This document shows, one piece after another, positions 178-30,448 of a stretch of 32,605 bases of DNA. The position numbers and the translations under genes were made by a program. The first letter of the stretch is position 1; every line of letters begins with the position of its first letter. The notes under the pieces are model-generated. The model did not search any database. It had not been told where the DNA came from and saw nothing but the letters and a program-made list of their open reading frames with translations. Origin of the DNA: Alphaproteobacteria bacterium (GTDB lineage: Bacteria; Pseudomonadota; Alphaproteobacteria; ATCC43930; CGMCC-115725); the NCBI GenBank assembly GCA_021325525.1, contig JAJPHB010000002.1, positions 1 to 32,605 on the forward strand. Direction: 5' to 3'.

Positions 178-753
178 TCAGAGCATGACGAGGCCGAGGC
201 GCGCGGCCTGCGCCACCGCCTCGGTCCGGCTCTCGGCGCCAAGCTTCGCAAGAATGGCGGCGACATGGAACTTGACGGTGTGGAAGGAAAGGCCGAGGCG
301 GCGGGCGATCGCCTTGTTGGAGGCGCCGTCGGCGAGGGCGCCCAGGATCTCGATCTCGCGCGGCGTCAGCGCGGGACGCTCGCTATCCTCGGGCGCTCTC
401 GGCCGCGCGGCGCCGCCGATCGCGGCAATCGCGGCGACCGTGGCGGCCGGATCAGCGGCGAGGCGCAGCACGGCATCGGCGCCGGCGCGGAGCGCCGCGA
501 TCGCCTCCGCCTCCTTGTCGATCAGCGCGATCCAGGCCGGCGGCCGAGCGCGCGGCGGAAGCGCCGGGAAGCCGTCGGCGTCCCGCCAATCCGCGATGAG
601 GACGTCGCAGGGCTCGTCCTCCTCGGCCGCTCCGGCGCCGGCGACGAGGGCGATGCCCGCAGCGCCTCTCAAGCGGCTCTCCAGAGCGCGGCGCCAGGCG
701 TGATCGCGCGTCCGGAGGGCGACAGAGAGAGGCCGCGATGCCGTGCCGGCCAA
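178..753 (-). CDS. LuxR-family transcriptional regulator with atypical receiver domain
   Basis: The C-terminal half (about residues 128-191) is a clear LuxR/GerE helix-turn-helix: LTPREIEIL, then SNKAIARRLGLSFHTVKFHV and a closing TEAVAQAARLGL. The N-terminal 115 residues have receiver-like spacing: DVLIADWRD places an Asp (D55) where the phosphorylated Asp would be, and IAALRAGADAVL resembles the fourth to fifth elements. The usual DD pair is reduced to RDH, and the Thr and Lys of the phosphorylation switch seem missing, so phosphorylation is doubtful. I chose the TTG start at 753 because GGAG lies 10 bases upstream and this start avoids a long overlap with the HtrA-like gene ending at 758; it gives 191 residues. 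An ATG at 795 is the alternative. It is probably co-transcribed with that gene. The role is DNA binding in the cytoplasm; targets are unknown. Confidence 0.82.
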   Translation of the reverse strand: MAGTASRPLSVALRTRDHAWRRALESRLRGAAGIALVAGAGAAEEDEPCDVLIADWRDADGFPALPPRARPPAWIALIDKEAEAIAALRAGADAVLRLAADPAATVAAIAAIGGAARPRAPEDSERPALTPREIEILGALADGASNKAIARRLGLSFHTVKFHVAAILAKLGAESRTEAVAQAARLGLVML

Positions 754-757
754 GGCG

Positions 758-1675
758 TCAGCGCTCCGCCGCCATCCGCTCGCCGATGACGACATCGAGA
801 GCGGCCGAGGCGCCGCCGCGCAGCAGCGCCAGCCTGACCGTGCCGCCGACGCTGTCGGCGCCGAGGAGGCGCATGACATCGCGCACGCGCGCCACCGGCG
901 TCCCGTTCCAGGCGAGAATGACGTCGCCGATCAGGAGGCCGGCGCGGGCGCCCGGCCCCTCGGGATCGAGGCTGACGACGAGGATCCCGCCCTTGCGCTC
1001 TGACGCGGGCGCCTCGCCTTTGCGCGTCCCGAGCGCCACCGCGTGCAGGCCGGCGCCGAGATAGCCGCGCGGAATGCGGCCTTTGGCGAGGAGCTGATCG
1101 ACGACGCGGTCGATCGTCGAGCGCGGAATGGCGAGCGCGCGCCGGCGCGGGCCGGACACGGCCATGCCGAGGACGCGCCCCTCCGCGTCGATGAGGGCGC
1201 CTCCCTCGGCGCCCGGAGGAAGGCGCAGATCGAGCCGCATCAGCAGGTCGATCGTGCCGCCGCGCCGGCTCTCCCACGGACCGCCGGCGACCGCGACGAG
1301 GCCGAGCGCGGCGGCAGGCGCGCCGTCATGGCTGCCGACGGCGACGACGATGCTGCCGGCGCGCGCCGCGCCGGCATCGCCGAGCGCGGCGGCGGGGAGG
1401 TCGCCGGGCTCGAAGCGGAGCAGCGCGACATCGGTCGTGGGATCACGCCCGACGAGCGAAGCCGGGAGCGAGCGCCCGCCCGGCAGTGCGAGGGTGATCT
1501 CGTCGTCGCGGGCCAGCGCCTCCTCCGCCGTCACGACGAGGCCGGGGCGCCAGTGAATGCCGCTCGCCGGCCAGCGGCTGCCGCTCTCGACGGCGACGAC
1601 GCTGTCGGCCGCGCGCTCGACGAGGCCCGCGAGATGCTCGGAAAAGGCGGCGACGGGATTAGCGGAGGGAGTCAT
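758..1675 (-). CDS. HtrA/DegP-like S1C protein with PDZ domain, catalytic residues lost
   Basis: This 305-residue protein has the order of an S1C protease: a trypsin-like domain (about 20-195) and one C-terminal PDZ domain (about 203-300, YLGAGL, ARAGLLIGDVILAWNG). Landmarks are GLVVTAEEAL (45-54), DPTTDVALL (78-86) and PPGAEGGALIDAEGRVLG (153-170). In active HtrA proteins these read TNxHVV, SDxALL and GNSGGAL. Here the His position is Glu52, the Asp is kept (Asp82) and the Ser position is Glu157, so proteolysis is not expected; a scaffolding or peptide-sensing role is inferred. No convincing signal peptide is seen at the chosen start, so it may be cytoplasmic, or the start may be wrong. The ATG at 1675 was chosen because an in-frame extension to 1855 would run through the divergent copper promoter. 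It is followed directly by the LuxR-type gene, suggesting a two-gene operon. Confidence 0.85.
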   Translation of the reverse strand: MTPSANPVAAFSEHLAGLVERAADSVVAVESGSRWPASGIHWRPGLVVTAEEALARDDEITLALPGGRSLPASLVGRDPTTDVALLRFEPGDLPAAALGDAGAARAGSIVVAVGSHDGAPAAALGLVAVAGGPWESRRGGTIDLLMRLDLRLPPGAEGGALIDAEGRVLGMAVSGPRRRALAIPRSTIDRVVDQLLAKGRIPRGYLGAGLHAVALGTRKGEAPASERKGGILVVSLDPEGPGARAGLLIGDVILAWNGTPVARVRDVMRLLGADSVGGTVRLALLRGGASAALDVVIGERMAAER

Positions 1676-26471: not shown

Positions 26472-26565
26472 CTTGCTCCTCCGCGGCGCCGGGACGGGGC
26501 GGCGCCCTTCCTCATATAGCAACGAGGAGGGCGCCCGTCATCGGCGCCGGCGCAGGGCGCCGCGC

Positions 26566-27420
26566 TCAGGGCTCGATGGCCCAGGATCCGTCGGCGCGCC
26601 GGCAGGCGGTGCCGTCGCCGCGCCGCGTCTCGCCCGAGACGTAGATCGCCTGCTCGAAGCGCCGGCACCATTGCGCCGCGGCGTTCTTGAAGGGCCGCGC
26701 CGCGACGACCGTGCCGGCATTGCGGCTGAAGGGGTTGCGCCACCCGACCAATTGCCCGGGCCCTGCCGTTTCGAGCGTCTGCTGCGTCGTCTCGTGCAGG
26801 CGCCGCCGGTCGGCGGGATCGAGCATGCGGGCCAAATCGCTGTTGGCGATCGAGACGAGGAGATCGTCGTCATCGGCGCCGGCGGGCTGCGCCGGCAACG
26901 GCGCCGCGGAGCTCGCCGTCACGACCGGCGCCGGATGGCGCGGCGCCGCTTCCTTGGAGGGGGTTCCGGCGGGATCGGCGCAGGCTTCGTAGTCGGAGCG
27001 CGCGGTCGTCGCCTTGCCCGCCGCGTAAACGCGCAGGTCGCTCGGCCGCATCTCGCCGGCGAGCGCCACGAGGTCGAAGGCCTCGGCGCAGAAGGACGGC
27101 GATTGCGCCGCGCGGTCGGCCGCCTCCTTCTCGAGGCCGGCGATATAGGCCGCCACCGTCGGCGGGCCGTCGCCCGCGGCATCGCGCGCGAGGTGCTCGG
27201 CCAGGATCTGCTCATAGGCGGCGAAGGTGTCGCGATTGCGCTCGGCAAAGGCCGCGTAGCTCGGCTCCTTGCAGAGATCGCCGATGACCTTCATCTCGGT
27301 GCGGAGGCGAATCGCCTGGTCGGCCTCGACTTCCTCGGGGAGATAGCAGGATCCGGCGGCGGCCGCCTCAGCCGCGAAGGCGATCAGCAGCGCGGCGGAC
27401 GCGAAGGACACGCGCTTCAT
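26566..27420 (-). CDS. Exported two-domain protein with RT0821/Lpp0805-type C-terminus
   Basis: A 284-residue protein with a signal peptide (MKR, hydrophobic core, cleavage near AAA-GSC at about 22). The N-terminal domain (25-150) has four Cys (25, 50, 111, 147) and the stretch CYLPEEVEADQAIRLRTEMK, which I have seen in uncharacterised alphaproteobacterial exported proteins. A linker (150-185) precedes the C-terminal domain (222-284): GQLVGWRNPFSRNAGTV, then Cys252 and Cys273 (GTACRRADGSW). This matches the small C-terminal domain of 17-kDa surface antigen/RT0821 family envelope proteins. Both likely sit in the periplasm; function is unknown. The ribosome-binding site is GGGAGG. It diverges from the CpoB-like fusion gene. 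Confidence 0.8.
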   Translation of the reverse strand: MKRVSFASAALLIAFAAEAAAAGSCYLPEEVEADQAIRLRTEMKVIGDLCKEPSYAAFAERNRDTFAAYEQILAEHLARDAAGDGPPTVAAYIAGLEKEAADRAAQSPSFCAEAFDLVALAGEMRPSDLRVYAAGKATTARSDYEACADPAGTPSKEAAPRHPAPVVTASSAAPLPAQPAGADDDDLLVSIANSDLARMLDPADRRRLHETTQQTLETAGPGQLVGWRNPFSRNAGTVVAARPFKNAAAQWCRRFEQAIYVSGETRRGDGTACRRADGSWAIEP

Positions 27421-27663
27421 CGAGCGGCCTCCCGCTTGGCGAATTCACCTTATGGTAGATTAACGCGAAACCGCCTTCCGTGCGAGTCGCCAGTTGGGGC
27501 AAGAGAGAGAAAGACTAGGCCTAATGATCGATCGCCCGAAATACAGCAAAGCACGGCGCGACCGGCCGCGATGGTAAACGAAATTTCGATTTCCTCCTTC
27601 CGGGGCCTATGGCAACCTATGGGCGAACGGATTTGACTCGGATGTGATCTCCGGAGGGCCGCC
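27421..27663. promoter_or_regulatory. AT-richer divergent control region of two envelope genes
   Basis: This 243-base gap separates two divergent genes for exported envelope proteins. It is clearly richer in A and T than its surroundings and holds a perfect 10-bp palindrome, CGAAATTTCG (27579-27588). GGAGGG just before 27664 is the ribosome-binding site of the right-hand gene. TTGACT (27633-27638) lies too close to that start to be its -35. I could not place -10/-35 pairs with confidence. Confidence 0.4.
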
Positions 27664-29355
27664 ATGAAGCGCCTGGTTCTCGCCGGAATCGTGATCCTCT
27701 CGGCCGCTGCGGGCGGCGCGACCGTCGCGGCGCCGGCCGATCCGGCGCAGGCGAGCTACGACATGGCCTTCGGCCTGACCCGCGCCGGCAGCTTCGGCCT
27801 CGCCGAAAGCGCCTGGCGGAGCTTTCTCAGCAAATATCCCGACCATCCCTTGGCCGGCAACGCCCAGTACTTCCTCGGTGAGACCTTCTATGACCGCCGC
27901 GACTTCGCGCGCGCCGCGATCGCCTTTGGCGTCGGCGCCGAGAAATACCCGAAGAGCGAGATGGCGGCGCCGACGCTGCTGAAGCTCGGCATCGCCCTCG
28001 GCCGCTCGGGCGAGACGGCGCAGGCTTGCGATGCCTTCGCCCGCCTCCACCGGCAATTTCCGGAGCTCGGCGGCGTCATTCGGGAGCGCGCTCTGGTCGA
28101 GGCCCGGCAGTATCGCTGCGCCGAGGCGGCGGCGGCGCCGCCGGCCGGCGCCGCCCCTTCCGCGCCGGCGGTGAAGCTCGCCGCCGCGCCAGCCGCGCAT
28201 GACACGGCGCCGCTGCCGCCCGCCCCGCCGAGCGTCATCGCCGCCCCGGCGCCGGTCGCCCCCGCCACGCCGGCTGCCGCGGCGCCGCCCGGCACCTCGG
28301 TGCCCGACCGCTCGGGCGAGCCGCTCAAAGCGGCGGAGGCCGAGCCGGCGCCGCCGGCGCAGCCCGTCCCTCCCGTCGATCGCGCCCCGCTCGCCGGCGT
28401 CGATGCCGAGCGGGCGGCCGCCAAGGCCGAGCTGGTGCCGACGCCGCCGCCGGTGGTGAAGCCGCGCCTCGCCGCGCTGACGCGGCCGGCGGCATCGCCG
28501 CGCCAGGCCGGCGCCGACGAGATCAAAGCGGCCCAGACGCTGCTCGCCGCGCTCGATTACGATCCCGGCCCCATCGACGGGCAGAACGGCGCCAAGCTGC
28601 GCGAGGCGGTCCGCGCCTTCGAGAAGCGCAACGATATGCGCCCGGACGGCGAGGTCTCGGACCGTCTCCTCCAGCGCCTCAGCGCCGCCGTGGCGGCGCG
28701 CAAGGCGCCGGCGCCGGCGGCGACGACCGCGGCGCAGCGTCTCGCCGGCACCGGCTTCGTCGTCAGCAAATCGGGCTTCGTCGTGACGAGCTACCGCCTC
28801 GTCGCGGCATGCAAGGAGGTGCGCGTCCGCTCTGTCGCCTCCGAGAGCGTGCCGGCGCCGGTCATCGCCGCCGACCAGCGCGACGATCTGGCGCTGCTCC
28901 GCTTCAAATCGGCCGCCGCCGCGGCGGTCAGCTTCCGCGACGGGCGCGGGCCGCGGCAGGGCGAGGGAGTGGTCGTGACCGGGCTGTCGCTCGGCGAGGG
29001 CGGCTCCTCGGATTTTTACCTGACGACCGGCGTCATCAACGCGCTTTCAGGCGGTCATGACGACAACCGCCTGCTCCGCATCAGCGCGCCGATCGACGCC
29101 GAAAGCGGCGGCGCGCCGGTCTTCGACGGGCATGGCCACGTCATCGGCATCCTCGGCGCCGCCGGCCGCGGGCGCGGCAAGGGCGGCGACGGAACGGGCG
29201 AGGCAGGTCTCGCCTTGCGGGCGACAGTCGCGCGTAACTTCCTCGACGCGCACAATGTCGATTACGACAGCGCCGCGGCCGGCGCCGAGCTGAAGGCCGC
29301 CGAGATCGGCGATGCCGCCAAGGACGTCGTCGTCCTCGTCGAGTGCCACCGCTGA
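27664..29355 (+). CDS. CpoB/YbgF-like TPR - peptidoglycan-binding - trypsin-like fusion, catalytic His missing
   Basis: A 563-residue exported protein (signal peptide to about residue 23). Residues 30-152 are a CpoB/YbgF-type TPR unit ([60 protein letters not shown]). A Pro/Ala-rich linker spans 155-285. Residues 286-342 are a PG_binding_1 domain ([35 protein letters not shown]). Residues 360-535 are a trypsin-like domain: [29 protein letters not shown] and [19 protein letters not shown]. Compared with the HtrA pattern TNxHVV the His is Arg378; Asp408 and Ser481 are retained. Protease activity is therefore doubtful. The CpoB part suggests a link to the Tol-Pal system or to peptidoglycan synthases, but no tol genes are nearby. 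The GGAGGG ribosome-binding site is strong. The domain order is unusual and I do not know a described homologue. Confidence 0.85.
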
Positions 29356-29413
29356 TCTGACGACGCTTCCCGCGCCATTCGCGTTTTGCCGCCGGGCCGC
29401 TATGCTGGCCGCC

Positions 29414-30448
29414 ATGTCCCAGAGCCTCGCCCTGCGCCGTCCCGACGACTGGCACCTCCATCTGCGCGACGGCGCCATGCTGGCCGCCGTCCTCCCCTTC
29501 ACGGCGCGGCAATTCGCCCGCGCCATCATCATGCCGAACCTCGTGCCGCCCGTAACGACGGTGGCGGCGGCCGCGGCCTACCGCCGGCGCATTCTCGCCG
29601 CTCTCCCTCGCGGAGCGGAATTCACCCCGCTGATGACCTGCTATCTCACCGACGCGACCGATCCCGAGGAGCTGGCGCGCGGCCACCGCGAGGGCGTCTT
29701 CACCGCGGCGAAGCTCTATCCGGCGCACGCCACGACGAATTCGGCGCATGGCGTCACCGACCTCGCGCGCATCGAGCCCGTGCTGGAGCGCATGGCGCGC
29801 ATCGGCATGCCGCTCCTCGTCCATGGCGAGGTGACGGAGCCCGGCGTCGATGTCTTCGACCGCGAAGCCGTCTTCATCGAGCGCGTGCTGGCGCCGCTCC
29901 ATCGCCGCCTGCCGGAGCTGAAGATCGTCCTCGAACACGCGACGACCGAGGAGGCCGTCGCCTTCGTTTCCGCCTGCGGCCCCACCGTCGCGGCGACGAT
30001 CACCGCCCATCACCTCGTCATCAACCGCAATGCCATTTTCGCGGGCGGCCTCCGCCCGCATCTCTACTGCCTGCCGATCGCCAAGCGCGAGACGCACCGC
30101 CTCGCCCTGCGCCGCGCCGCCGCCTCGGGCGATCCGCATTTCTTCCTCGGCACCGATTCGGCGCCGCACCCTGTCACGGCGAAGGAGAGCGCCTGCGGCT
30201 GCGCCGGCATCTTCACCGCGCCCGCCGCCCTCGAGATTTACGCGCAGGTCTTCGAGGAAGAAGGCGCGCTCGACCGCCTCGAAGCCTTCGCCTCGCTGAA
30301 CGGCCCGCGATTCTACGGCTTGCCGCCCAACGAGGCGCGCATCGCCTTGCGGCGGCGGAGCTGGCGCGTGCCGGAGCGGGTCGCTGCCGGCGAGGCTTGG
30401 ATCGTGCCGTTCCTGGCGGGGGAAGAGGTCTTGTGGGCAATCGCGTGA
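29414..30448 (+). CDS. pyrC: Dihydroorotase (class II, PyrC)
   Basis: A 344-residue zinc amidohydrolase that closes carbamoyl-aspartate to dihydroorotate in pyrimidine synthesis. Metal ligands are His14 and His16 ([10 protein letters not shown]), the Lys to be carboxylated Lys100 (TAAKLYPA), His137 (LLVHGEV), His175 (LEHATT) and Asp248 (GTDSAPH). The length matches E. coli PyrC (about 348). ATG 29414 places the conserved start at the usual distance; an in-frame ATG at 29402 is possible. No Shine-Dalgarno sequence precedes either. The gene stands alone 58 bases after the CpoB-like fusion gene and converges on asnB. Confidence 0.95.

Follow-up and report, generated by a model that had tools for sequence, protein, structure and literature searches.

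A gene preceding pyrC in an alphaproteobacterial genome joins a CpoB-type TPR, a peptidoglycan-binding domain and an apparently degenerate HtrA-like domain

In this study, we describe an open reading frame of 563 codons at positions 27664-29355 (+ strand) of a 32,605-nucleotide stretch of alphaproteobacterial DNA, referred to here as the window. The frame begins with ATG directly downstream of a GGAGG ribosome-binding site, and its stop codon is followed after 58 nt by pyrC, encoding dihydroorotase (29414..30448, + strand; TIGR00856, 469 bits), for which the start at 29414 was our choice. On the other side lies a divergent gene (26566..27420, - strand) encoding an exported-looking, two-part protein of 284 amino acids, with a C-terminal stretch resembling the 17-kDa antigen (PF16998, 24.2 bits, below the cut-off of 26.6). 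Partial relatives of this neighbour were found in 36 of 39 genomes of the family, its two halves matching mostly separate genes, and because such relatives are so many the neighbour was not singled out as a partner.

Residues 1-27 (27664..27744) of the 563-amino-acid protein were read by eye from the translation as a likely Sec signal peptide lacking a lipobox cysteine. Residues 28-152 (27745..28119) form a YbgF/CpoB-type TPR domain, for which TIGR02795 (tol_pal_ybgF) was matched over residues 29-134 with 91.9 bits, above its curated cut-off of 90.1 (E = 4.3e-26), and the solved structures of YbgF (2xev) and CpoB (6g5s) were matched as well. This domain is followed by a linker of 129 residues (153-281; 28120..28506) containing 32 prolines and 42 alanines, by a PG_binding_1 domain at residues 285-339 (28516..28680; Pfam, 50 bits, cut-off 23, E = 3.4e-13) carrying the YDPGPxDG motif common to most of the printed relatives that combine this domain with the protease, and by a Trypsin_2 domain of the S1C/HtrA-like kind at residues 362-496 (28747..29151; Pfam, 71.1 bits, cut-off 27.6, E = 2.1e-19), which is catalytically degenerate. 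The protein ends in a conserved tail (residues 501-563; 29164..29352) with a cysteine, Cys561, that co-occurs with Cys383; all these features lie on the + strand. With such E values the three domain matches are not chance, and each was above its cut-off, so that the fusion and the Pro/Ala linker of about 130 residues proposed in an earlier note made from the letters of the DNA were both confirmed. Moreover, GC content by codon position in the segments encoding the TPR, the peptidoglycan-binding domain, the protease domain and the tail resembles that of the neighbouring genes, and these segments therefore all look coding; the linker has a higher GC content at codon positions 1 and 2.

The catalytic positions were read from an hmmsearch alignment of 60 subfamily rows. 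The column of the catalytic His held 58 His, one Arg (Arg378 of the 563-amino-acid protein; 28795..28797, + strand) and one gap; the gap belongs to a fragment lacking the His region (L047), and one of the 58 His rows, L096, duplicates L139 in truncated form, leaving 57 distinct. Since all other rows covering the site have His, Arg378 is private to this protein, and since a whole-protein orthologue was not found it cannot be called conserved. The Asp column held 59 Asp and one Glu, and Asp408 (28885..28887, + strand) is retained, as the same note had stated. Its further statement that Ser481 stays did not hold. Glu480-Ser481-Gly482 (29101..29109, + strand) replace the Gly-Asn-Ser of the nucleophile loop, and in the alignments produced with phmmer against a solved DegQ, with hmmsearch and with MAFFT, each ungapped throughout the loop, the nucleophile (Ser in 58 and Thr in one of the other subfamily rows) is matched by Gly482, the Asn of GNSGG by Ser481 and the Gly before it by Glu480. 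The Gly directly ahead of the nucleophile loop in the family was absent from this protein in every alignment inspected. In the aligned register the His-Asp-Ser triad of the HtrA/Deg proteases is represented by Arg378, Asp408 and Gly482, and the motifs TSYRLV and AESGGAP stand against TNxHVV and GNSGGP in the subfamily. Judged from these alignments, Ser481 is likely off the nucleophile column, where a local gap could restore its register, and the His is lost whichever way the Ser481 loop is aligned; the loss of catalysis seems to reach further than had been noted.

The pattern of residue loss was examined at columns with at least 85% agreement among 54 other members, comparing segments placed around the three triad positions with the remainder. 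The alignments comprised 57 others plus the 563-amino-acid protein (A2) and 54 others plus the same protein (A3), with L096, L047, L100, L150 and L152 left out of A3. Within the catalytic segments 8 of 14 consensus residues are missing, a loss that exceeds 3 of 14 in none of the 54 others; outside them 4 of 19 are missing, where the other members lack a mean of 0.98 and, among the rows printed, as many as 5. The contrast between loops and remainder is modest (Fisher one-sided p = 0.039) and, because the segments were picked after the alignment had been viewed, the member-by-member comparison carries more weight. Among the changed positions outside the segments are the family consensus residues Pro442, Gln472, Asn513 and Phe516, some of which probably line the cleft, and the conserved glycines beyond the catalytic loops are kept together with both subfamily cysteines. 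The Trypsin_2 subfamily, as seen in the window at 28735-29352 and in the relatives, has one conserved Cys five residues past the catalytic His and another near the C-terminus. These two (Cys383 and Cys561) co-occur in 52 of 55 rows and may possibly form a subfamily disulfide.

An AlphaFold2 model of residues 279-563, built from a 55-row alignment, had a mean pLDDT of 84.4, with most of the protease in blocks of 93-98, a weak peptidoglycan-binding part (52-73) and a C-terminal tail that was mostly ordered apart from a weak stretch near residues 499-508. The folds nearest to the model, found using Foldseek and VIA-align, were DegS, HtrA and MucD, and superposition with DegS (3lgv_H) gave a Z of 20.5 and an rmsd of 2.1 over 166 aligned residues. 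At a Z of about 20 to DegS the predicted model has the S1C fold of HtrA/Deg proteins, and an HtrA-like fold is thus predicted to be retained despite the catalytic degeneration; the alignment rows were mostly intact relatives, which pull the prediction towards their own fold, and the model shows compatibility and no more.

Among 58 subfamily members scanned, this protein included, Trypsin_2 was found in 58, Sel1 in 24, PG_binding_1 in 14, MORN in 4 and Peptidase_S11 in 1, the architectures of 30 of the 57 others being scanned one by one. TPR_6 was matched only in the 563-amino-acid protein, and TPR_16 in that protein, L094 and L149; the last two, Sel1-rich and scoring 20.4 and 27.9 bits against a cut-off of 32.7, were taken as Sel1 cross-matches and not as TPR members. 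PG_binding_1 occurs in 13 other members (in L105 below the cut-off); eight of them combine it with Sel1 and Trypsin_2, one has MORN in place of Sel1, and the others carry no Pfam module besides PG_binding_1 and Trypsin_2. His, Asp and Ser occupy the triad columns in all 13. Homologues with an intact triad, which the earlier note would have counted against its proposal, therefore do exist for the protease domain; the host's own paralogue on C120 (L036) also has an intact triad. The four best relatives, with open frames of 657-951 codons and 39-40% identity within residues 263-562, align across both domains as a single block, so the peptidoglycan-binding and protease parts probably arrived as a unit. 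A separate observation concerns L045:5145-7034 (+), where a D-alanyl-D-alanine carboxypeptidase (Peptidase_S11, 195 bits) is followed in one frame by the same protease domain (Trypsin_2, 100.4 bits).

By its PG_binding_1 and Trypsin_2 domains, C-terminal tail and both cysteines the 563-amino-acid protein belongs to this subfamily, departing from it in the catalytic motifs, and it scored 267.8 bits against family model A1, of which it was itself one of the 10 rows. Nine of those rows have an intact triad, and the family as gathered with the model may favour intact relatives. The block of peptidoglycan-binding domain, protease and Cys tail is common in the class. Matches to a model of its protease part, a large share of them apparently ordinary HtrA genes, occurred at E 1e-25 in at least 336 of the 385 class genomes. 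On the evidence of these domain matches, the C-terminal half belongs to a large module-swapping subfamily whose N-termini are most often Sel1, and the description of the gene as an undescribed protein type was too strong.

The N-terminal half retains 36 of the 43 columns conserved in 33 CpoB-like rows. The host has its own CpoB, encoded by a separate gene beside pal, tolB and tolR on contig C19 (TIGR02795, 130.1 bits), whereas the 563-codon gene precedes pyrC and lies outside the tol-pal cluster. The cpoB model NF008068 gave 51.1 bits against a cut-off of 383, a weak test, since the host's own CpoB reached only 90.3. In the 563-amino-acid protein the signal region runs straight into the TPR, so that a coiled coil would not fit between them. 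A recent copying of the host CpoB was considered and rejected, as the two TPRs are 43% identical and the fused one has a long branch of its own. In the trees, where the exact root of the TPR branch and the position of the protease domain are uncertain, the terminal branches measured 1.57 for the TPR (median 0.096) and 1.32 for the protease domain (against 0.5), which means that the fusion is old or evolves fast.

A second gene with both halves was sought in genome sets that overlap and include the host. None was seen among the matches listed in a whole-protein search of 61 relatives' genomes (host included), nor, with the C-terminal part as query, in the 39 family genomes (host included); of the subfamily open frames fetched, none showed the TPR when checked with the whole protein. 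Matches at E ≤ 1e-30 likewise yielded no gene with both halves in 385 class genomes (best three candidates per genome) or in 150 phylum genomes (best nine per genome), and there was none in one genome from the family of the best relative. Among 20 matched plasmid records none covered 80% of the whole-protein query, and a search of a contig collection returned five loci with partial matches only. Long matches of low identity (e.g. G035:C101, residues 157-517, 28%) were set aside, being apparently HtrA genes partly aligned to the linker. The combination of TPR, PG_binding_1 and protease was found in one genome only among those searched, and no description of the three in one protein was found among the open-access papers listed, judged by titles and the openings of abstracts.

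Of 13 genomes with a pyrC match, the surroundings were examined in 11 others, G044 being omitted. In 10 of the 11 a thiolase gene is found close to pyrC, and the space between the two (26522-29414 in the window; L126-L136 in the relatives) varies, being close to empty in several; by product names read by eye, it holds a chemotaxis receptor and a YbaK-like gene in L126 and chemotaxis genes in L127. The 563-amino-acid protein and its divergent neighbour were absent from all 11 loci at E 1e-2. With such variable content, and with the gene in none of the 11 loci, the site says little about function.

The window contains another HtrA-like gene, at 761-1675 (- strand), next to a gene at 181-879 (- strand). 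Its product (TIGR02037, 130.3 bits, cut-off 416.2) has Glu-Asp-Glu at the triad positions. Its nine closest matches, from nine other genomes of the 39 searched, have Glu-Asp-Glu (one) or Gln-Asn-Glu (eight). With the window's protein counted, none of the top ten, drawn from 10 of 39 family genomes, has a working triad (Glu-Asp-Glu in two, Gln-Asn-Glu in eight); the weaker matches that were read have His-Asp-Ser. Of the 10 loci, 3 have an HtrA with an intact triad inside the fetched flank and 9, counting that of the window, have a relative of the adjacent regulator gene, judged by eye to be LuxR-type. Judged by these residues, the 761-1675 protein looks like a member of a conserved pseudoprotease family. 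Because its dead triad recurs across genera, a pattern that the 563-amino-acid protein as a single-genome case cannot display, it is the better pseudoprotease lead and the better subject for studying non-catalytic functions of HtrA proteins.

For the 563-amino-acid protein, the reading that we hold to be probable, by a little, is a periplasmic, wall-tethered, non-proteolytic pseudoprotease scaffold; the non-catalytic, wall-tethered adaptor of the earlier note is still the best reading, its novelty as a protein type being the part that did not stand. Sec export and PG_binding_1 would place the protein on the peptidoglycan. The HtrA-like domain would keep its predicted fold while lacking the His and, in the alignments inspected, the nucleophile and the oxyanion-loop Gly, and this dead domain could hold a protein or peptide ligand without cutting it. 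The sensing of peptides or wall state suggested in the earlier note would be speculative. The TPR is related to that of CpoB but diverged, and lacks the coiled coil; it would serve as an arm for binding partners, held out on the flexible linker, and might perhaps reach TolA or a PBP. As to origin, the gene would be a peptidoglycan-binding and protease member of the module-swapping subfamily, bearing a CpoB-type TPR where eight relatives have Sel1. The domains and their order, a loss centred on the catalytic loops, the predicted fold, the conserved TPR columns and the coding-type codon pattern speak for such a scaffold. As a separate CpoB is encoded beside pal, tolB and tolR, the gene is free for another role. 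Against such a scaffold, ligand binding may be gone too, given the changes at probably cleft-lining residues, and the long terminal branches also fit relaxed constraint; no orthologue was found that would reveal selection on the dead site.

The main rival, which we consider unlikely though deserving of serious weight, is a decaying or recently orphaned gene, once an active peptidoglycan-binding and protease fusion and now functionless under relaxed constraint. Its restriction to one genome among the sets searched, the long branches of both domains, losses that extend past the triad loops and a site of variable content among relatives all suit decay. Set against this are 563 open codons whose GC pattern is of the coding type and resembles that of the genes nearby, a ribosome-binding site, a TPR with most of its conserved columns, and the retained glycines and both cysteines of the protease domain. 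An assembly in 172 contigs and the single occurrence would also suit a chimera of a cpoB fragment and a protease gene, an explanation that we find scarcely credible, as the frame is continuous within the contig, codon use is of the coding type to either side of the junction, and a TPR only 43% identical to the host CpoB has no donor seen in the genome.

Two further explanations were considered. In one, the TPR acts on TolA and a peptidoglycan synthase as CpoB does, the remainder being a mere wall anchor; passage of the curated TIGR02795 cut-off and the binding of TolA and PBP1B reported for the CpoB TPR in PMC7391070 and PMC4458516 speak for it. We regard this as doubtful, since the host has its own, higher-scoring CpoB in the tol-pal cluster, the TPR is very divergent and follows the signal region without space for a coiled coil, and the NF008068 score is far below its cut-off, although that of the host's own CpoB is also low. 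In the other, the protein is still a protease, a local shift bringing Ser481 to the nucleophile position and a different base standing in for His. Asp408 is retained and an SGG motif is present one residue off, so that a gapped alignment is possible, but the alignments inspected were all ungapped in the loop, Arg stands where His is found in all other rows that span the site, and Glu lies opposite the oxyanion-loop Gly; continued proteolysis is thus very improbable.

An extension of the scaffold reading, speculative and in our view improbable, is that a CpoB-derived arm fixed on peptidoglycan, together with a dead HtrA domain binding unfolded or C-terminal peptides, couples envelope folding stress to Tol-Pal or a peptidoglycan synthase; if true, the protein would be a non-proteolytic stress reader of the wall. 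More generally, the peptidoglycan-binding and trypsin module is widely shuffled in the class, with Sel1, MORN, TerD, DD-carboxypeptidase and now YbgF-type TPR N-termini, and the catalytic loops can be lost from a protease domain that keeps its predicted fold, next to a retained anchor domain. If functional, the protein would combine a pseudoprotease fixed to the wall with an arm of the Tol-Pal type. Its parts are familiar and the combination looks like a one-off variant of a mix-and-match family; as a single-genome case it settles no open question.

The protein was also compared with known systems. CpoB/YbgF has the same TPR type, as the TIGR02795 match indicates, but carries a coiled coil ahead of it according to PMC7391070, whereas here the TPR comes first; and the 33 CpoB-like rows extend at most 4 residues past the matched TPR, against about 400 in this protein. 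DegP, DegQ and DegS (HtrA, S1C) share the predicted fold, with a sequence match to a DegQ at 2.3e-10, and differ by their intact triad; TIGR02037 gave 58.4 bits against a cut-off of 416.2, and no PDZ domain, which follows the protease in HtrA/Deg proteins, appeared in a Pfam scan of the 563-amino-acid protein at E up to 1. The closest architectural relatives, Sel1, PG_binding_1 and Trypsin_2 proteins of the same class such as L048 (945 amino acids, 13 Sel1 stretches), share the peptidoglycan-binding domain, protease and Cys tail, with 39% identity over residues 279-561, and also have a repeat-bearing N-terminus; they differ in having a Sel1 array and an intact His-Asp-Ser in place of a YbgF TPR and a broken triad. 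A trypsin with six Sel1 repeats is on record in PMC2605481. MamO, described in part of PMC4794232 as an HtrA-like protease repurposed without catalysis, resembles the present protein in its fold, and its solved domain (5hm9) was among the fold matches of the model; in MamO the Ser is replaced by Thr, with His and Asp retained, and there is a TauE-like transporter domain, that part of the paper mentioning neither a TPR nor a wall-binding domain. The periplasmic part of PodJ likewise combines TPR and a peptidoglycan-binding domain in a scaffold protein, with a transmembrane anchor and no protease fold mentioned in the corresponding part of PMC8980812; the likeness is one of domain arrangement. 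MamO serves as a precedent for a repurposed HtrA-like domain and PodJ for a periplasmic TPR and peptidoglycan-binding scaffold.
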